Below are positions 29,994 to 38,552 of a stretch of DNA of 42,225 bases, in pieces. The position numbers and the translations under genes were made by a program. A model generated the notes under the pieces. It was not told the origin of the DNA and did not search any database. It was given only the letters and a program-made list of their open reading frames with translations. Source of the stretch: Yinghuangia seranimata (lineage in GTDB: Bacteria; Actinomycetota; Actinomycetes; Streptomycetales; Streptomycetaceae); NCBI RefSeq assembly GCF_029953285.1, contig NZ_JASAOI010000013.1, positions 1 through 42,225 on the forward strand. The letters are read 5' to 3'. The first letter of the stretch is position 1. Every line of letters starts with the position of its first letter.

Positions 29994-31913
29994 ATGGCCG
30001 GGGTTCACGACGACGGCATATCCGCCGACGACCGTCACGACGCCGAACCGGCGGTAGCGCAAGGCGGATCCGAGCCGAAACCGGCCGCCGACAACGACCC
30101 CGCGGACGAGCCGCGCGAGGCCCCGGCGCCGTCACCTGAACGCCCGGCACCCGCCTACTCCGACCCCGCGGCCGAACCCGACGCGTTCGCCCGGCCGCTG
30201 CCCCCCGCCGCGCCGCCGGAGCCCACGGCCGACGTCCTCGCCGACCCGGCCACCGAGCCCGAGGCGTTCGCCTCGCCGCACGGCGCCGCGCAGCCGGGAG
30301 AAAACCTCACGCCCGCGCCGCTCGTCGTCACCGAAGGCCCGAAGGCCGAAGGCACGGCACCGTCCGGCCCCGACGCGGCGGGAGTCGGCGATCCGGCCGC
30401 GGCCGCGCAGTCCGCGGCACCGAACACCGCACCCGACGAACCCTTGCCGGCCACAAGCACCGTCGTCGGCGCGGTCGACGCCGCCTCCGCGCCGCCCGCC
30501 GCCGACGTCCCGGCCGAACCCGCCGCCGTGGCCCCGCCGCGCCGGATGCACCCGGTGCTCGTGCCGCTCATGGTCATCGCCACCGTGCTCGCGGTGCTCA
30601 TCGTCGGCAGCGGCCTCGTCTCACTCCCGGGCGCGGGCGACGTCGTCGCGCCCGCCGCGGCGTCCGGCCCGTCCGCGTCGGCCGGCACACCGCACGGCTC
30701 CGCGAGCGCCTCGCCCTCGCCGTCCGAACCACCGCACACCGAGATCAAGTTCGACGAGGTCCGCGCGCTCGCCACCGCGCAGAGCGCCGCGCTGAGCGGC
30801 GGGAACGTGGACGCCTTCCTCGCGCCGTACGACCAGACCGGGGCCGCCTCCGCCGACCTGCTCGCGGAACGCCGGCGCACGTTCGCGAACCTGCGCCTCA
30901 TCCCGTTCGACCGCGCCGAGTTCCGCTGGGACCGCGTCGCGTCCGGCGCGCTCAGCGGGCGCGACACCGGCCCGGTCGCCGCCGACGTCGAGGTCAGCTT
31001 CGTCCACCAGATCTCCGGCGTCGACGCCGCGCCGGTCGCCGAGGTCTACGTCTGGACCCTCGAACGTGCCGCCATCGGCGCCCCGTTGCGCATCACCAAG
31101 GTGCGCGGCTCGTCCGGGCGCGGCGGCGGCTACCCCGCCGCGTGGGACCTCGCCGAGCTGGTCAAGGCCGACCGCCCGCACGTCATCATGCTCGCCGCGG
31201 CCGCCGACCAGGGCAAGCTCGGCACCTGGGCCGACCGCGCCGAGGGCGCCGCCAAGCGCGACCTCGAGCTGTGGAAGGGCCCCGACGGAATCCGGTCCCG
31301 CTTCATCGTGTTCGCCAGCCCCGACGACGACACGTTCGCCAAGGCGTACGGCCCCGGCATGCCCAAGGGCGTCGTGGCGTTCTGCGCCCCGCTCGTCGGC
31401 GACGGCTCCCGTGGCAGCGGAACGGTCGTCGGCAGCCGCCTCACCTGGAACAGCCGCGCGAAGGGCACCACCAGCGCGGAGGGCCAGAGCGGCGTCATGC
31501 GCCACGAGATGGGCCACGCGCTCATGGACGCGTTCGAGAACACCCGCGGCGCCGAGGCCCCGCTCTGGGTCGTCGAGGGCTTCGCCGAATACCTCGAATG
31601 GGTGGACCGCTTCGGCGAGTACTACGTGCCCGCCGCCCGCGACTACGTCCGCAGCGGCGAGTTCACCGGCAAACTCCCCGGCGACAAGGACCTGTACGGC
31701 GAGGACCCCGAGTCCAGCGGCATCAACTACCACCTGGCCATGACGGCCATCCGGTACATCGCCGACAAGTACGGTGCGGGCAAGGCCTTCGAGTTCGTCG
31801 TCGCCGTCTACCGCGAGCCGACCGCGGTGGAGAGCGCGCTCCAAGCGGCGACCGGCCTCGACATGGCGACGTTCCAGTCGAAGTGGGCGCAGTGGGTCAA
31901 GAGCCACGTGTGA
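29994..31913 (+). CDS. Membrane-anchored HEXXH zincin-like protein, paralogue A
   Basis: 639 aa. A long cytoplasmic tail (1-184) rich in Ala, Pro, Asp and Glu precedes one membrane helix (about 188-212). An NTF2-like region follows (about 250-360; RALATAQSAALSGGNVDAFLAPYD, RRRTFANLRLIPFDRAEFRW, VHQISGVDAAPVAEVYVWTLER). The C-terminal gluzincin-like domain has His504-Glu-x-x-His508 (HEMGH) and a putative third ligand Glu528 (VVEGFAEY, 19 residues later), then the helix AIRYIADKYGAGKAFEFVVAVY. The catalytic domain should be outside the cell. GGGAGG lies 7 nt before the ATG. Its TGA overlaps the next gene as GTGA. Peptidase activity is inferred from the motif; the substrate is unknown. Confidence 0.85.
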   Translation: MAGVHDDGISADDRHDAEPAVAQGGSEPKPAADNDPADEPREAPAPSPERPAPAYSDPAAEPDAFARPLPPAAPPEPTADVLADPATEPEAFASPHGAAQPGENLTPAPLVVTEGPKAEGTAPSGPDAAGVGDPAAAAQSAAPNTAPDEPLPATSTVVGAVDAASAPPAADVPAEPAAVAPPRRMHPVLVPLMVIATVLAVLIVGSGLVSLPGAGDVVAPAAASGPSASAGTPHGSASASPSPSEPPHTEIKFDEVRALATAQSAALSGGNVDAFLAPYDQTGAASADLLAERRRTFANLRLIPFDRAEFRWDRVASGALSGRDTGPVAADVEVSFVHQISGVDAAPVAEVYVWTLERAAIGAPLRITKVRGSSGRGGGYPAAWDLAELVKADRPHVIMLAAAADQGKLGTWADRAEGAAKRDLELWKGPDGIRSRFIVFASPDDDTFAKAYGPGMPKGVVAFCAPLVGDGSRGSGTVVGSRLTWNSRAKGTTSAEGQSGVMRHEMGHALMDAFENTRGAEAPLWVVEGFAEYLEWVDRFGEYYVPAARDYVRSGEFTGKLPGDKDLYGEDPESSGINYHLAMTAIRYIADKYGAGKAFEFVVAVYREPTAVESALQAATGLDMATFQSKWAQWVKSHV

Positions 31914-33589
31914 CGGAAGCCTCCGGGCCCGACGACGCCGACCGCCGCAGCCCTCCGGGCCGGCCCGGCGTACGGCTTGCCGCCGCCATCGCGGTCGCCG
32001 CCGCACTGCTCATCCCCTCCGGCCTCGCCGCCGGACCCTATCTCGCGGAACGCCCCGACGCCGCCCGCTCGGTCGTCGACCACGTGGGCGCCGACGGCCG
32101 CATCCCGGGCGCCGGCGGGCAGCCGGACCGCGAGACCGGCGGACCCGGACGCGCCCGCCCCGCCGACCCCACCCGCGACGAGGTCGCGGCGCTCGTCGCG
32201 ACGCAGAACACCGCACTGCGGACCCGCGACGAGCAGCTGTTCCTGTCCGCCTACGCACCCGACCGGCCCGACCTGCGCGCCGAACGGGTACGGCTGTTCG
32301 GCAACCTGCTCAAGATCCCGTTCAGCCGCGCCGAGTACCGGCTGCAGGACGTCCGGCCGGAACCCCCGCCGGACCGCCCGCCCGGTGGCGGTCCGGGCCC
32401 AGGCCCGGGCGGTCCCGGTCCTGGAGGTCCGGGCCCGGGCGGCGGTCCCGGACGCGGACCCGGCGGCGGCCCTGGAGGCGGCCCAGGTGGCGGTCCCGGC
32501 GCGCCGAGCCGCGGCCCGAACGGCGGTGCGGGGCACGGCCCCGGCGGCCCCGGCGGTGGTCCGGGCGGAGGACCTGGAGGCGGCGGCCCGCCCCCCGGAG
32601 GCCCGCGCGCCAGCTCCGCCACCATCGTCTTCGCCCACCAGATCACCGGCGTCGACGTCGGCGCGATCGCCGAGATGTACCACTGGACGGTCACCCGCGC
32701 CGCGCCGGGCGCGCCCGCGCTGATCACCGCCGTCGACGGCGGCCCCACCGACGCCGCGCGCCGCAACTCGACCTATCCGGCGCCGTGGGACGCGGCCGAA
32801 CTCGTCCTCGTCGACAAGCCGCACGTGCTGCTGCTGGCCGCCCGGCAGCACGAGTCCAAGGCCGCCACCTGGGCCACCCGCGCGGAGACCGCCGCGACCC
32901 GCGACCTGGCCGCCTGGCAGGGTCCCGAGCGCCCGCCCGAGCGCTTCGTCGTCTTCCTGACCCCGGACCACGCGTCGTTCGACGCGGTCCGCGGCGGCGA
33001 CAGCGTCACCTCCAACGCCATCGGCGTGTGCCTGTCCCTGCCCGCCGACCCCGTGCAACGCGCGCCCGACACCCCGGACTTCGCCGGCAGCCGGATCTAC
33101 GTCGACTCCACCTCCGCCGACATCAGCGACGGCGCCGCCGACGGCACCATCGCGATCTTCCGGCACGAGATGGGCCACGCCATGGTCGCGCCGTTCCAGA
33201 AGCGCGTCGTCGGCGCCGCGCCGCCGCTGTGGGTCGCCGAGGGGTTCGCCGGATACCTGGAGTGGGCCGACCGCTCGCTCGACCGCTGGTACGTCCCGCC
33301 CGCCCGCGAACTGGTCCGCTCCGGAGGCTTCTCCGGCCGGCTGCCGACCGACACCGAGATCTACTCGACCGATTCCAAGACGAGCGCGACCGGCTACCAC
33401 TTCGCGATGCTCGCGATCCGTTTCATCGCCGACAAGTACGGCCCCGCCAAGGCCTACTGCTTCGTCGTCGCGGTCTACCGCGACCCCCGCCCGGAAGCCG
33501 TCGACGCCGCGCTCACCGCCGCGACCGGACTGGACCGGACAACCTTCGAAGCCAAATGGGCGCAATACGTCAAGAACAAGGTCGGATGA
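31910..33589 (+). CDS. Membrane-anchored HEXXH zincin-like protein, paralogue B with Gly/Pro insertion
   Basis: 559 aa. The short cytoplasmic tail (1-21) is followed by a membrane helix (about 22-44), an NTF2-like region (from about 85), and the zincin domain with His419-Glu-x-x-His423 (HEMGH) and Glu444 (VAEGFAGY). Residues about 151-234 are an almost pure Gly/Pro segment placed between two strands of the NTF2-like region, where paralogue A has an ordinary loop. The GTG start at 31910 overlaps the stop of A by 4 nt, so translation is coupled and no ribosome-binding site is needed. A gap of 124 bp separates it from paralogue C. Confidence 0.84.
   Translation: MTEASGPDDADRRSPPGRPGVRLAAAIAVAAALLIPSGLAAGPYLAERPDAARSVVDHVGADGRIPGAGGQPDRETGGPGRARPADPTRDEVAALVATQNTALRTRDEQLFLSAYAPDRPDLRAERVRLFGNLLKIPFSRAEYRLQDVRPEPPPDRPPGGGPGPGPGGPGPGGPGPGGGPGRGPGGGPGGGPGGGPGAPSRGPNGGAGHGPGGPGGGPGGGPGGGGPPPGGPRASSATIVFAHQITGVDVGAIAEMYHWTVTRAAPGAPALITAVDGGPTDAARRNSTYPAPWDAAELVLVDKPHVLLLAARQHESKAATWATRAETAATRDLAAWQGPERPPERFVVFLTPDHASFDAVRGGDSVTSNAIGVCLSLPADPVQRAPDTPDFAGSRIYVDSTSADISDGAADGTIAIFRHEMGHAMVAPFQKRVVGAAPPLWVAEGFAGYLEWADRSLDRWYVPPARELVRSGGFSGRLPTDTEIYSTDSKTSATGYHFAMLAIRFIADKYGPAKAYCFVVAVYRDPRPEAVDAALTAATGLDRTTFEAKWAQYVKNKVG
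32361..32610 (+). repeat. Gly/Pro-coding low-complexity repeat
   Basis: About 250 bp of imperfect GGNCCN/GGNGGN units encode runs such as GGGPGPGPGGPGPGG and GGGPGGGPGGGPG within paralogue B. The strand is extremely G-rich in clusters, so quadruplex formation and slippage are possible. The reading frame is kept throughout, suggesting selection for the protein. Confidence 0.85.
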
Positions 33590-33664
33590 GCACACGACAC
33601 CACGCGACGGCCTTGCGCCGACGCCGCATTCGCCCGGTTTTCCCCCGACCCGGGCGCACCCCGA

Positions 33665-33670
33665 TATCCT
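33665..33670 (+). promoter_or_regulatory. Possible -10 of paralogue C
   Basis: TATCCT lies 43 nt before the ATG of C; the same hexamer stands 39 nt before the start of paralogue D (37053-37058). A dyad ACCCG-CA-CGGGT follows at 33679-33690. Similar placement at both genes suggests they share a promoter type. Confidence 0.45.
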
Positions 33671-33713
33671 CACGCTGCACCCGCACGGGTGACGGCACCC
33701 GCGGAGCACAAGG

Positions 33714-35423
33714 ATGACCATGGACGACAGCGCACCTGGCCCCATGGTCGAGGGGGAGTCCTCCGACGCCCCGATATCCGGCGGTATCCCCGGGCAGACC
33801 CGCGGCGCCACCCCGTACCCCGCCCCCGGCACAAACCGGCAGCCCACCCCGTACTGGCCCGCCCCCGTGCCCGGCGCGTGGCAGTGGACGCCCACCGGTT
33901 TCCCGGGACAGCGCCCGCCGTTCGGCCAGATCCCGTACGCGCACCCCGGCGACCCGCAGCGGCTGTGGCCGCACGCCGTCGTCGACCCCCGCCGCGACCA
34001 GCAGACTCCCGCCATCGTCGCGCTGAGCCTGCTCGCCGCCGTCGTCACCCTCATCGCCTACGTCGGCGTCGCGGCCGACCGCGGCGCCGCCCGCTCGGCG
34101 GGTGCCGCCGCCGACTCCGCGCACGGCGAGACCCACCCGTACGCGCCCCAGGCCGGCGACCCGGCGCGGCCCGGCGGCACCAACCCGACCAAGGACCCGG
34201 GGCTCACCGGCCCCACCGCGTCCTCCTCCGCCGAGGCCGCCGTGCTCACCCGCACCCAGGCCCTCGCCGCGACCCGCACCACCGCCCTGCGCGCCAACGA
34301 CGCCGCCGCCTTCACCCGCGGCCTCGACAAGAACGACAAGGCGCTCCTCGACGGCCAGAACCGGCTGTTCGCCAACCTGCGCAAGATCCCGTTCGACGAG
34401 TCCACGTGGAACGCCAAGCGCGTCACCGACGCCCGCACCGACCCCGGCGCCACCGGCGGCTGGCCGGTCACCGCAACCGTCGACGTCGCGTTCCAGCACA
34501 AGATCACCGGCGCCGACGTCGGCGCCGTCGCCGAGCACTACGTGTGGACCGTGCGCTGCGCCACCAGCACCGACCCGTGCGCCGTCACCAAAGTCGTCGG
34601 CGCCGACGACAGCCACGTCACCGGCCCCTCCGGCTACCCGGCGCCGTGGGACCTGTGGGACCTCGCCGTCGAACGCCGCGCGCACGTCGTCACGTTGGGC
34701 GACCGCTCCCTCGGCGACCACCTGCGCATCCGCGCCGACGAGGCCGAAGCGGCCGCCACCTACGACCTCCAGCGCTGGTCCGGACCCACCGGCACCTCGC
34801 CCGGCTTCGTCATCGCGCTCACCCGCGAACGCGCCGACTTCGACAAGATGTACAGCCGCGAGTCCGCCGGCGACTGGGCGGCCGGCTTCGCGCTCCCGCT
34901 GTCCGCCTCCGGCGACAACGACCGCGTCGGCGGCAGCCGCGTCGTCATCGACCTCACCGAGATGGACCGCGACGCGGTCTTCGCCAAGGTCATCCTGCGG
35001 CACGAGATGATGCACGCCCTGCTCGACCCCATCACCCGCGCCGACTTCACCCGCATACCCCTCTGGGCCGCCGAGGGCTTCGCCGACTGGGCCGCACAGG
35101 CCGACCGGTCGATCCGCGGCACCTACGAGGCGCGCGGCGTCGCCGACCTCATCCACAACGGCAAGTTCAAGGGCACCCTGCCCACCGACGCCGACTTCGA
35201 CTCCACCGACGAAGACGTCATCGACGCCGCCTACAACCAGGCCCACCTGGCCATCCGCTACCTCGCCGACACCTACGGCGCCGACCGCGCCTGCGCGTTC
35301 ATAGCGGACGTCTACCAGGGCACCTCCAGCAGCCTCGACGCCGCGATGCGCGCCGCCACCGGCAAGAACCTCAGCGAGTTCGAGAAGGCCTGGGCCGACT
35401 GGACACGCAAGAACTTCGGCTGA
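33714..35423 (+). CDS. Membrane-anchored HEXXH zincin-like protein, paralogue C
   Basis: 569 aa. The cytoplasmic tail (1-97) is rich in Pro, Tyr and Trp (PYWPAPVPGAWQWTPTGFPG). A membrane helix (about 99-121) and a Thr/Ser/Pro linker follow, then the NTF2-like region (about 180-290) and the zincin domain with His430-Glu-x-x-His434 (HEMMH) and Glu454 (AAEGFADW). It ends in the family pattern AIRYLADTYGADRACAFIADVY...FEKAWADWTRKNFG. GGAG lies 7 nt before the ATG. Its last codons and stop form the left arm of a 14-bp hairpin. It probably has its own promoter. Confidence 0.85.
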   Translation: MTMDDSAPGPMVEGESSDAPISGGIPGQTRGATPYPAPGTNRQPTPYWPAPVPGAWQWTPTGFPGQRPPFGQIPYAHPGDPQRLWPHAVVDPRRDQQTPAIVALSLLAAVVTLIAYVGVAADRGAARSAGAAADSAHGETHPYAPQAGDPARPGGTNPTKDPGLTGPTASSSAEAAVLTRTQALAATRTTALRANDAAAFTRGLDKNDKALLDGQNRLFANLRKIPFDESTWNAKRVTDARTDPGATGGWPVTATVDVAFQHKITGADVGAVAEHYVWTVRCATSTDPCAVTKVVGADDSHVTGPSGYPAPWDLWDLAVERRAHVVTLGDRSLGDHLRIRADEAEAAATYDLQRWSGPTGTSPGFVIALTRERADFDKMYSRESAGDWAAGFALPLSASGDNDRVGGSRVVIDLTEMDRDAVFAKVILRHEMMHALLDPITRADFTRIPLWAAEGFADWAAQADRSIRGTYEARGVADLIHNGKFKGTLPTDADFDSTDEDVIDAAYNQAHLAIRYLADTYGADRACAFIADVYQGTSSSLDAAMRAATGKNLSEFEKAWADWTRKNFG

Positions 35424-35443
35424 CCCCACGGGTCAGCCGAAGT
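35413..35443 (+). terminator. Terminator overlapping the stop codon of paralogue C
   Basis: A perfect 14-bp stem ACTTCGGCTGACCC/GGGTCAGCCGAAGT (35413-35426 with 35430-35443) has loop CAC. The left arm contains the last two and a half codons and the TGA stop (35421-35423). Confidence 0.85.
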
Positions 35444-35457
35444 CCTCGCACTCCACA

Positions 35458-35510
35458 CCGGCGTCACACGCCGGGACACCCACCGCCGGACGGCCGCGGC
35501 ACACGCCGCG
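35458..35510. terminator. Two further hairpins between convergent genes
   Basis: CCGGCGT/ACGCCGG with loop CAC (35458-35474) and CGCGGC/GCCGCG with loop ACAC (35495-35510) lie between the ends of paralogue C and the HNH gene. The second abuts the HNH stop and may terminate the minus strand. Confidence 0.5.
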
Positions 35511-36017
35511 TCAGGCCGTCACCGGCTCACCGAACCACGCCTGCTGCTCCGCCCCCGTCACGCCGAACGCCAGCACCAGCGCACGCGACCCGGCGGGCTC
35601 GTACGGCTCGAACAGCAGCCGCATCCCCGCCTCCTCCGGCGTCCGGTCCGCCTTGAGCTGGTTGTCCGCCGCGCAGGCCGCCACCGTGTTCAGCCACGAG
35701 TCCGCGCCACCGCGCGACTTCGGCCGCACGTGGTCCACCGTCGTGGCCCGCCCGCCGCAGTACGCGCACTTGCGGCCGTCCCGCTGCAGCACCCCGCGCT
35801 TCGACCACGCGACCCGTTGTCGGAACGGCACGCGGACGTAGCGGAGCAATCTGATGACCCGGGGAACCGGCAGCTCAAGCGCCGCCGCTCGCACGACCCG
35901 GCCGGGATCGGCGTCCTCGACGACGGCCTTCTCCTGCAACACCAGCACAAGCGCGCGACGGAACGACACCGTCGCGAGCGGCTGGTACGTCGCGTTCAGC
36001 ACCAACGTGTCCCGCAT
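35511..36017 (-). CDS. HNH endonuclease family protein
   Basis: 168 aa. The N-terminus (LVLNATYQPLATVSFRRALVLVLQEKAVV) matches actinobacterial HNH proteins. The zinc/HNH region is CAYCGG (first Cys pair), VDHVRPKSRGG (catalytic His in DH), then NTVAACAADN. The second Cys pair is reduced to a single Cys, with Ala-Ala-Asp-Asn in place of the usual CxxCN. The ATG at 36017 has GGAGG 8 nt upstream. Such proteins are widespread and mostly uncharacterised; DNA nicking is the family expectation. It is not paired with a methylase here. Confidence 0.87.
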   Translation of the reverse strand: MRDTLVLNATYQPLATVSFRRALVLVLQEKAVVEDADPGRVVRAAALELPVPRVIRLLRYVRVPFRQRVAWSKRGVLQRDGRKCAYCGGRATTVDHVRPKSRGGADSWLNTVAACAADNQLKADRTPEEAGMRLLFEPYEPAGSRALVLAFGVTGAEQQAWFGEPVTA

Positions 36018-36221
36018 GCGTCCGCCCTCCTTCCAAGGGGGTGGACCGCCGGGAACCCGGAACGACACCGCGCACCGCCGGGCAGACGCCCGCCGGAACG
36101 CGCCGACACGCTACGCGCGCCGGATCGTCCTCAACAGAGCGGTGGTGCCGCGGTGGCCATGCGCGCCTTTCCGTGAACTCGACGGCCCGGTTCGGGGAAT
36201 TCCGACTCGGCGGCCCGCCGC

Positions 36222-36340
36222 GTCACGGCCGCGGGCCGTGACCACTGTGCCCCCCGCACGATCAGCCGGACAACGCAATTTCGCCGAACACCCGCCGAAC
36301 ACCCCGCGTCGCGCGGGCGCGCACACGACCGCGCGCCCGC
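36222..36340. promoter_or_regulatory. Hairpins in the HNH-PEBP gap
   Basis: The 371-bp gap 36018-36388 contains no supported gene. It holds a 9-bp hairpin GTCACGGCC/GGCCGTGAC, loop GCG (36222-36242), and a 10-bp hairpin GCGGGCGCGC/GCGCGCCCGC (36313-36340). The latter lies 49 nt downstream of the PEBP stop on the minus strand and is a likely terminator; the former may be an operator or a second terminator. Confidence 0.5.
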
Positions 36341-36388
36341 CGCGGAGCAGGGCTCCACGACGGGCGCGCGGTTCGTCGGGGGAAGGCG

Positions 36389-36931
36389 TCAGCGCTGGTA
36401 CACCGGCGTGATGATGGCCCGCGCCAGCGTCTTGAAGAACAGGTTGAAACCGACCACCGCGGGCGTCACGTTCTCGTCCACACCCAGCGTCTCCTCGCCC
36501 ACCGCGTGCACGACGAACGCGTAACGGTGCGCGTGGTGCCCCTCCGGCGGCGCCGCACCCACATAACCCGGCATACCGGCGTCGTTGCGCACATGGAACG
36601 CGCCCGCGGGCAGCCCCTTGCCGTCCGCCGCGCCCGCGCCCCGGGGCAGCTCCGTCACCGACACGGGGACGTCCACCACGGTCCAGTGCCAGAACCCGCT
36701 CGCGGTCGGCGCGTCCGGGTCGAAGCACGTCACCACGAAGCTCTTCGTCTCCGGCGGGAAACCCGCCCACGACAGCTGCGGCGACACGTCCTCGCCACCC
36801 GCGCCCATCACCCCGCTCACGTACGGGTCGGGCAGCGTCACACCGTCCGCCACATCCGTGCTCTCCACCGTGAACCACGGCTTCTCCGGCAGGAATTCAT
36901 ACGGCATCGGGGGCAGCTTCAGGTCCGACAC
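36389..36931 (-). CDS. YbhB/YbcL-type PEBP-like protein
   Basis: 180 aa phosphatidylethanolamine-binding-protein fold. Family motifs are [36 protein letters not shown] and a C-terminal [15 protein letters not shown] (the conserved H-x-Y/F segment). Bacterial members are cytosolic or secreted proteins of unclear function, some inhibiting proteases or kinases. No signal peptide is present. The GTG at 36931 has GAGGAG 5 nt upstream. It lies between zincin paralogues C and D on the opposite strand. Confidence 0.9.
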
Positions 36932-37052
36932 GACCACTCCTCGTCTCCAGGACGGCACCAACCCTCCGACCCTACGCGCTCCCCAGGCGGCATCCCGCCC
37001 ACCACGGACAACGCGAGCACGATCATCTCTCGGCGCCACGCCCACGCCCAGG

Positions 37053-37058
37053 TATCCT
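37053..37058 (+). promoter_or_regulatory. Possible -10 of paralogue D
   Basis: TATCCT lies 39 nt before the GTG start of paralogue D, in a similar position to the hexamer at paralogue C. Confidence 0.4.
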
Positions 37059-37097
37059 CCCGCCACCGGGCGAAGCGAACCGAGGGGAGCGGGCCAC

Positions 37098-38552
37098 GTG
37101 GCGCAAGCGCGACCGATACGGCCCACCACGGGCCGGGCAGGCCGCGTCAACCGCCCCACCGTCGCCCTGATCCTGCTCGTCGTCCTGCTCACGTCGGTCA
37201 TCGCGTACGGCGCCACCCGAAGCCGCGGCGGCACCCCGCACACCCCCGGCCAAGGCGCCCAGCCCGGCGTCCCGAGCGCCACCCAACCGGGCGACGCCAC
37301 CCCGGCCGTCCCCGGCACCGACACCGGCATCACCCCGGCGCAGCTCGACGCCCTCGCCGCCGCCCGCACCCACGCGCTCGCCGCCGGCGACGAAGCCGCC
37401 TTCACCGCGGCACTCGACCCCGCCACCCCCGGCCTCGTCGACGAACAACGCCGGCTCTTCCGCAACCTGCGGCCCATCCCGTTCGACGAAGCCGCCTACC
37501 GCGTCGACAGCAGCCGCCCCGTGCCCGGCGCGGCCGGCACGCTGATCGTCGACGTCTCCTTCGACCACCGCATCACCAACGCCGACGTCGCGACCGTGGG
37601 GGAGGGCTACCGCTGGACCGTCACCCGGCCCGCGCCCGGCGCGCCCCTGCGCATCAGCAGCATCACCGGAACCCCGTACGAAGGCGCCGGATACCGCTAC
37701 GCCCGCGACTACCCCGCACCCTGGGACCGCGCCACACTCACCGTCGTCCGACGCCCCCACACGGTCGTCCTCGCCGACCCCCAGGTCGCCGACCGCGCCG
37801 AATCCCTCGCGGACGCCGCCGAACAGGCCGCCGTCACCGACCTCACCGGCTACGCGGGCCCCCGCGGCACATCTCCCGGCTTCGTCCTCGTCCCCGTCGC
37901 CGACCGCGCCGCCTTCTACGAGCTCTACGGCGGCCGCGCCGACCAGCACGGCGACGAGTCCGGCCTCACCTACGCGCTGCGCACCTCACCCACCGGGACC
38001 ACCGCCACCCAGTCCGCCCCCGGCAGCACCCCCCAGTTCGGCGGCGCCCGCATCGTCGTCGACGTCACCTCCGGCTACTTCACGTCGGGCGACCCCGAAC
38101 GCGCCGCCGTCCTGCTCCGCCACGAGACGGCCCACGCCCTCATCACCCCGCTGCGCAGCGAACTCGCCGGACAGAACCAGCCCGTGTGGCTCGTCGAAGG
38201 CTTCGCCGACTGGCTCGCGCTCCGCCCGCACCACGGACACCTCGAGGGCGACCTCGCCGAAGCACGCACCTACGTCCGCAGCGGCCGCTTCCCCGGCACG
38301 CTGCCCACCGACGCCGACCTCTACCAGGCCGACCCGGTGGGCAACGCCGCCTCGTACGAGCTCGCCCACCTCGTCCTGCTGCGCATCGAACAGACCCGCG
38401 GCAGCGCCGCCGTCTACCGGCTCGTCAGCGCCGTCTACGCGGACCCGTCACCCGCGTCCGTCGACCGCGCCATCAAGGACGCCACCGGACGCGGCCGCGC
38501 CGACTTCGAACGCGACTGGGCGCAGTACGTGAACAGCATGTTCGGCCGCTAG
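37098..38552 (+). CDS. Membrane-anchored HEXXH zincin-like protein, paralogue D
   Basis: 484 aa, the shortest paralogue. A basic 19-residue cytoplasmic tail precedes the membrane helix (about 20-42), a Pro/Gly/Thr linker, the NTF2-like region (about 85-190: [41 protein letters not shown]) and the zincin domain with His342-Glu-x-x-His346 (HETAH) and Glu367 (LVEGFADW). The GTG at 37098 has GGGGAG 8 nt upstream. It is separated from A-C by the HNH and PEBP genes on the other strand but shares the same architecture. It converges on Spo0M with 36 bp between stops and no clear terminator. Confidence 0.84.

Follow-up and report, generated by a model that had tools for sequence, protein, structure and literature searches.

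The four genes described here lie between positions 29,994 and 38,552 of a 42,225-nucleotide (nt) stretch of DNA from the soil actinomycete Yinghuangia seranimata (contig NZ_JASAOI010000013.1, hereafter the window) and probably encode gluzincin-type zinc metallopeptidases that span the membrane once, face outward, were duplicated within one branch (branch B) of their family and work in proteolysis at the cell envelope. Judged by sequence comparison, they are extra copies in an actinobacterial family that is old, hardly studied and divided into two branches, A and B. The genes are numbered 1 to 4 by position and their features are collected in Table 1.

A search of the genome with gene 3 recovered the other three genes at E-values of 1e-68, 3e-57 and 6e-53, pairwise values that rule out a chance occurrence of the motif in four genes, and the ectodomains of the other three proteins are 36–40% identical to that of gene 3. 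Alignment of the four showed one common ectodomain in which HExxH, EGFA, WD and other residues are invariant. An earlier note on this DNA had proposed that the four genes share one design, and open reading frames (ORFs), alignment, E-values and fold predictions all agree with it. Its motifs HEMGH, HEMGH, HEMMH and HETAH, each followed by EGFA, were found with 19, 20, 19 and 20 residues between the last histidine and the glutamate, and the single membrane helix agrees with hydropathy analysis, which gave one strong N-terminal hydrophobic segment per protein. The tails ahead of this segment measure approximately 187, 22, 100 and 20 residues (for gene 4 counted from the GTG at 37098) compared with the 184, 21, 97 and 19 first given, and the C-terminal helix of the type AIRYIADKYG is clear in genes 1–3 but strongly diverged in gene 4.

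An AlphaFold model of the gene 3 ectodomain (mean predicted local distance difference test score, pLDDT, 95.2) places the HEXXH motif on a helix formed by model residues 257–276 and the glutamate E290 on the next helix (286–298). In fold searches the zincin domain of the model matched M30, M9 and M1 peptidases and the NTF2-like domain matched NTF2/ketosteroid-isomerase folds (alpha-beta cone), bearing out both the gluzincin-like domain and the NTF2-like region that had first been guessed from sequence. Gluzincins of clan MA are defined by HEXXH together with a downstream glutamate on the next helix as third ligand; at the level of prediction the window proteins show HEXXH in four of four, the glutamate on the next helix and a zincin fold. 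A profile match to aminopeptidase N (E 3.8e-6) runs across HEXXH...EGFA. With the Pfam family PF13485 (Peptidase_MA_2) gene 3 scored 36.0 bits (E 8.1e-9), above the gathering score of 32.4, while gene 1 (30.8 bits, E 3.3e-7) and gene 2 (25.4 bits, E 1.5e-5) scored below it and gene 4 alone gave no Pfam match; the match spans positions 66–201 of the 201 in the Pfam model and covers the C-terminal domain only.

The putative zinc site is well conserved, since HEXXH and the glutamate are kept in 91 of 96 family members (L057 and L058 left out; L099 and L094 counted as kept under a wider pattern), loss of the motif thus being far from routine among homologues. In a set of 67 rows, in the numbering of the gene 3 model, H266 is kept in 63, E267 in 64, H270 in 63, E290 in 65 and Y343 in 65, and HEXXH was present in all 20 loci chosen among the phylum-wide matches. 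The ratio of non-synonymous to synonymous substitution rates (dN/dS) was below 1 in all ten comparisons made. Basic residues precede the hydrophobic segment in all four proteins and therefore suggest an N-in/C-out orientation, and the lipobox-like signal peptides with which many branch A relatives start (for example L040 and L106; by eye) also point to an outward topology. The hydrophobic segment of gene 2 may be a cleaved signal peptide rather than an anchor.

To define the extent of the family, a profile built from the four ectodomains was run against relatives, where it matched 36 of 41 genomes, and against the class, where it matched 173 of 394 (four candidates scored per genome), and a second profile (A3) matched 67 of 296 genomes across the phylum at E 1e-10 (six candidates scored per genome). 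A tree of 91 members, from which the rows L054, L055, L057, L058, L094, L099 and L105 were left out, separated branch A (43 rows) from branch B (48 rows) with support 100/97; the tree carries a long-branch warning and the placement of L100 is unsure. Branch A was found as one gene in each of the 25 genomes of Streptomycetaceae (f1) in the survey of relatives (the tree assigned 23 of them, and gene order the other two, L054 and L055), and one f1 genome in the class-wide survey, G271, gave no match among its four scored candidates. L057 and L058 match the profile and resemble other HEXXH peptidases; they were rejected as members, as was a weak sixth match in the genome of the window (C112, E 8.9e-4), which by eye consists of two M1 aminopeptidase-like genes. 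The suggestion of a stand-alone, undescribed system does not hold, as the genes arose by duplication in one lineage from a family that extends across Actinomycetota and is partly caught by PF13485; the single-copy member of this family stands at a ripC-pimB'-like locus, and its mycobacterial form already appears in passages of PMC12067865.

Gene order was compared at 46 branch A loci (the 43 tree rows and L054, L055 and L105; search range 6 kb), which are not independent because the genomes are related. Genes in relatives' DNA were called with a home-made scorer of G+C at third codon positions (GC3), which leaves starts approximate and called no genes in three low-GC loci (L096–L098). Pfam tests of neighbours covered NlpC/P60, M48, S8 and PQQ_2 only, on a subset of proteins, and the names EccC, WXG, EspG-like, AsnC, FadD15, HNH, PEBP, SpoOM, Mpg, MarR and CobQ were given by sight. 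On the strand of the zincin gene, 32 of the 46 loci have an NlpC/P60 gene upstream (at 2.2 kb in L104, within 0.33 kb in the other 31), 40 have a pimB-like gene downstream and at least 20 have an M48 gene downstream, the last figure being a lower bound because matches overlapping the zincin gene were discarded (L031, for example, has an M48 gene). The window genome has a fifth copy of its own, of branch A (G000:C85, L076:6841-8232), which sits in an NlpC/P60–pimB-like context with an NlpC/P60 gene (Pfam E 1.6e-24) on one side and an M48 gene (E 8.5e-28) on the other. The full order NlpC-zincin-M48-pimB also occurs in L147, a locus from a different class, and genomes as small as ~1.4–1.7 Mb (G043, G070) still have branch A next to NlpC/P60 and pimB-like genes.

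In the family f6, probably Mycobacteriaceae, the profile matched 14 of 15 genomes, all 14 having HEXXH and the glutamate as HELxH...EGxA. Nine matches from the genus g24 (L110-L117, L119) begin at model position 137–158 and keep the zinc motif, so that these branch A proteins seem to be without the NTF2-like domain. In a further f6 genome, G144 (L105), the family gene has NlpC/P60 and pimB-like genes on its two sides, and its protein scored 37.7 bits with PF13485 (above the 32.4 cut-off) and 20.5 bits, just short of the cut-off of 22, with eCIS_core, the newer Pfam name of DUF4157. Passages of PMC12067865, a review from 2025, describe Rv2189c as a hypothetical, DUF4157-like HExxH protein beside ripC, followed by pimB, and its interaction with RipC as unexplored, while PMC11895460 lists the gene and no more. 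The place of branch A matches the locus described for Rv2189c, a likeness judged by gene position. The window genes differ from this type: they belong to branch B, are clustered elsewhere in the genome and do not lie between NlpC/P60 and pimB-like genes, and the g24 proteins seem to lack the NTF2-like domain.

Each of the genes 1–4 has an orthologue in Y. soli, and genes 1 and 3 also have one in the genome G001. In Embleya the gene 1/2, gene 3 and gene 4 types are found at the same locus, before SpoOM/Mpg/TyrS-like genes, and branch B has multiplied in both Yinghuangia and Embleya. Because the tree groups gene 1 with Embleya copies (96/81) and leaves gene 2 outside, at least three lineages, and four by the tree, predate the split of the two genera.

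Taken together, each protein would be anchored by its tail and one helix, with the NTF2-like domain adjoining the membrane and serving as spacer or gate. Cleavage of peptides or proteins in the envelope space would fall to the C-terminal domain, whose zinc site would be HEXXH...Glu. The copies would have arisen by duplication within branch B, mostly before the Yinghuangia–Embleya split. The family would act in cell-envelope proteolysis, where secreted proteins of the envelope, NlpC/P60 hydrolases among them, are perhaps what it trims or activates; processing of envelope proteins is the leading guess because of the ancestral link to the NlpC/P60 hydrolase locus, adjacency being no proof. An analogy is the proteolysis by a MarP orthologue that, according to passages of PMC12067865, is thought to activate a RipA homologue. 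A bolder version of this proposal, which we regard as tentative and rather doubtful, is a widespread actinobacterial module for envelope proteolysis whose NTF2-gated, membrane-anchored gluzincin has as its target the RipC-like NlpC/P60 hydrolase encoded next door, or partners of that hydrolase; the window lineage would have multiplied the module into four surface enzymes, and sister lineages would have made pseudoenzyme regulators or propeller-coupled copies at secretion loci. The work connects the HExxH gene next to ripC, itself unstudied, with a family of two-domain proteins that occurs across much of Actinomycetota and reaches genomes of ~1.4–1.7 Mb, and it supplies a confident model, a set of conserved catalytic residues and natural variants with a dead active site; should the family control NlpC/P60 hydrolases, wall remodelling in a major bacterial phylum would have a layer so far unrecognised.

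Several observations weigh against envelope peptidases tied to wall hydrolases. No NlpC/P60 gene adjoins the window genes, whose own link to wall hydrolases is by descent only. An NlpC/P60 gene is missing upstream in 14 of the 46 branch A loci (three of them with less than 0.8 kb of upstream sequence), namely L033, L034, L100, L101 and all ten f3 loci, and neither an M48 nor an adjacent pimB-like gene was seen in 17 of 20 phylum-wide loci (L141-L160, some of them short), which means that the branch A linkage is not phylum-wide. The branch A locus is shared with conserved but unrelated genes (AsnC-like, exonuclease, FadD15), so adjacency there may mean little. As to the enzyme itself, Foldseek TM-scores were modest (0.35–0.43 on query), three of the four window proteins miss the gathering score of PF13485 and the branch A protein of this genome does not match that family at E 0.1, and dN/dS of 0.35–0.76 between the window genes and those of Y. 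soli indicates only moderate constraint. Two lineages have dropped the catalytic residues but keep the genes: five motif-less members, namely three tandem genes in Y. soli and a single Embleya copy present in two genomes, lost both histidines yet their frames stay open. In genes 2–4 there are basic residues after the helix as well, which leaves the positive-inside argument less than clear-cut and the outward topology a prediction.

The motif-less members bear on a reading of the copies as mainly non-catalytic binders, pseudoenzyme scaffolds in which the motif is residual. A pseudoenzyme role is possible for these five, and the motif-less Embleya copy still gave a dN/dS of 0.34 compared with 0.14–0.29 for its motif-bearing sisters; for the family at large a scaffold role is very unlikely given that all four window copies and 91 of the 96 homologues have HEXXH and the glutamate and that Tyr343 is nearly always kept. 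Another reading is surface peptidases of broad substrate range that scavenge nutrients and were duplicated for dose; in its favour, the fold relatives M1, M9 and M30 are general peptidases and the copies stand in tandem. We consider this unlikely, since the duplicates predate the genus split at one conserved locus, unlike recent dosage copies, and branch A adjoins NlpC/P60 and pimB-like genes even in the ~1.4–1.7 Mb genomes named above.

Other readings look to the tails or to secretion. That each protein has its own cytoplasmic input to a similar external peptidase, forming a signal-responsive set as the earlier note suggested, agrees with the different tail lengths and with a juxtamembrane stretch like LWPxxVxPRR that the gene 3 lineage, and no other, keeps from Yinghuangia to Embleya (by eye). 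All four tails are rich in Pro, Ala and Gly, however (the 187-residue tail of gene 1 in Pro and Ala), and are the least conserved part of the proteins within the genus, with 23–59% identity to the Y. soli orthologues against 60–72% in the NTF2-like and 68–80% in the zincin domain, and 28–42% against 63–69% (zincin) in G001, tail figures that are inflated by composition bias. No Pfam match was found inside any tail at E 1. With tails so biased and so little conserved the claim of separate inputs rests on little, and we find it quite improbable. Branch B could instead belong to type VII secretion, a zincin and a PQQ propeller processing or folding WXG-type effectors and the window copies being a moved offshoot. 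Among 13 Streptomyces branch B loci in 12 genomes 11 have a PQQ-type beta-propeller gene downstream and nine have relatives of type VII secretion genes (EccC, WXG/ESX, EspG-like, S8) nearby (L086 and L136 counted on an S8 match alone), and over the whole branch a propeller lies downstream of 10 of 48 genes (PQQ_2 E 8e-16 and 3e-19 for two of them). These are, however, the only 12 of 295 Streptomyces genomes with a branch-B-like match at E 1e-30 (five candidates scored per genome), and the propeller-paired loci outside Streptomyces match none of the type VII secretion queries. The window gave no EccC, S8 or ESX match at E 1e-8, no EccC, WXG or mycosin genes stand alongside its four genes, no propeller is beside them, and none was found in the genome in a search run with no positive control. 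A type VII role is thus an unlikely explanation, and envelope metallopeptidases duplicated within branch B are the reading that we prefer.

Table 1. Positions of the four zincin-like genes and their features in the window.
Feature	Position	Strand	Remarks
Gene 1	29994..31913	+	639 amino acids (aa); NTF2-like + gluzincin, membrane-anchored; basis ORF, alignment, branch B tree position
Gene 1 membrane helix	30555..30626	+	~aa 188-211; hydropathy 2.71
Gene 1 HEMGH (aa 504)	31503..31517	+	Predicted third ligand Glu528 = 31575-31577
Gene 2	31910..33589	+	559 aa, GTG start; basis ORF, alignment
Gene 2 hydrophobic segment	31976..32041	+	~aa 23-44; membrane helix or signal peptide; hydropathy 2.20
Gene 2 Gly/Pro-rich insert	32360..32605	+	~75 residues, inside NTF2-like part; ends approximate
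Gene 2 HEMGH (aa 419)	33164..33178	+	Glu444 = 33239-33241
Gene 3	33714..35423	+	569 aa; basis ORF, Pfam, AlphaFold
Gene 3 membrane helix	34014..34082	+	~aa 101-123; hydropathy 2.59
Gene 3 NTF2-like domain	34206..34631	+	
Gene 3 gluzincin domain	34632..35420	+	
Gene 3 HEMMH (aa 430)	35001..35015	+	Glu454 = 35073-35075
Gene 4	37098..38552	+	484 aa from GTG; basis ORF, alignment
Gene 4 membrane helix	37158..37214	+	Hydropathy 2.44
Gene 4 HETAH (aa 342)	38121..38135	+	Glu367 = 38196-38198

The start of gene 2 overlaps the stop of gene 1 by 4 nt and 124 nt separate genes 2 and 3, which is why genes 1–3 may form one operon. Two genes on the minus strand (HNH-like and PEBP-like) lie between gene 3 and gene 4; the GTG at 37098 is a plausible start for gene 4, whose frame runs open further upstream. 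The insert in gene 2 is missing from its Y. soli orthologue. The cluster is flanked by MarR-like and SpoOM/Mpg/TyrS-like genes, and a similarity search of the neighbourhood gave no NlpC/P60, M48 or pimB match close to the four genes.

When compared with known systems, the nearest fold relatives, M30 lugdulysin and the M9 collagenases, are 9–13% identical, have titles that name no NTF2-like domain and are secreted, not anchored. Enterococcal PBP5 (8f3h) has an N-terminal domain of NTF2-like fold ahead of its enzyme, which is a transpeptidase. Flagellinolysin (NF033876) was rejected with 48.1 and 29.9 bits at best against a curated cut-off of 205, and so was a role in anti-phage defence, none of the four proteins matching PADLOC models at E 0.01. 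Literature searches found no paper combining a gluzincin with an NTF2-like domain, those for peptidase MA returned only off-topic papers, and in the literature searched neither the anchored NTF2-gluzincin architecture nor its spread was found described; fold and motif are already known and it is their anchored combination that appears to be new.

Some further loci of the family may be mentioned. The ten f3 loci (L042-L044, L046-L048, L050-L053) have GT87-like and pimB-like genes as neighbours of branch A, which may here have become naturally unlinked from NlpC/P60, three of the ten stretches being short. In L074:6556-10875 (Y. soli, G002:C1) the three tandem motif-less members carry lipobox-like signal peptides by eye and are possibly natural pseudoenzymes turned lipoproteins. 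At L088:6760-8790 and its kin, in several families, a membrane-anchored propeller of PQQ_2 type with a long Pro/Gly/Gln tail directly follows a branch B zincin. Near a lone branch B gene in Y. soli (L075:9188-11825, G002:C78) a 115-aa ORF with repeated GFSSYxE units is found together with a radical SAM (S-adenosylmethionine)-like gene (CNLACDYCYLYE) and an AAC(3)-like gene, both named by sight, and this stretch is possibly a peptide-maturation cluster.

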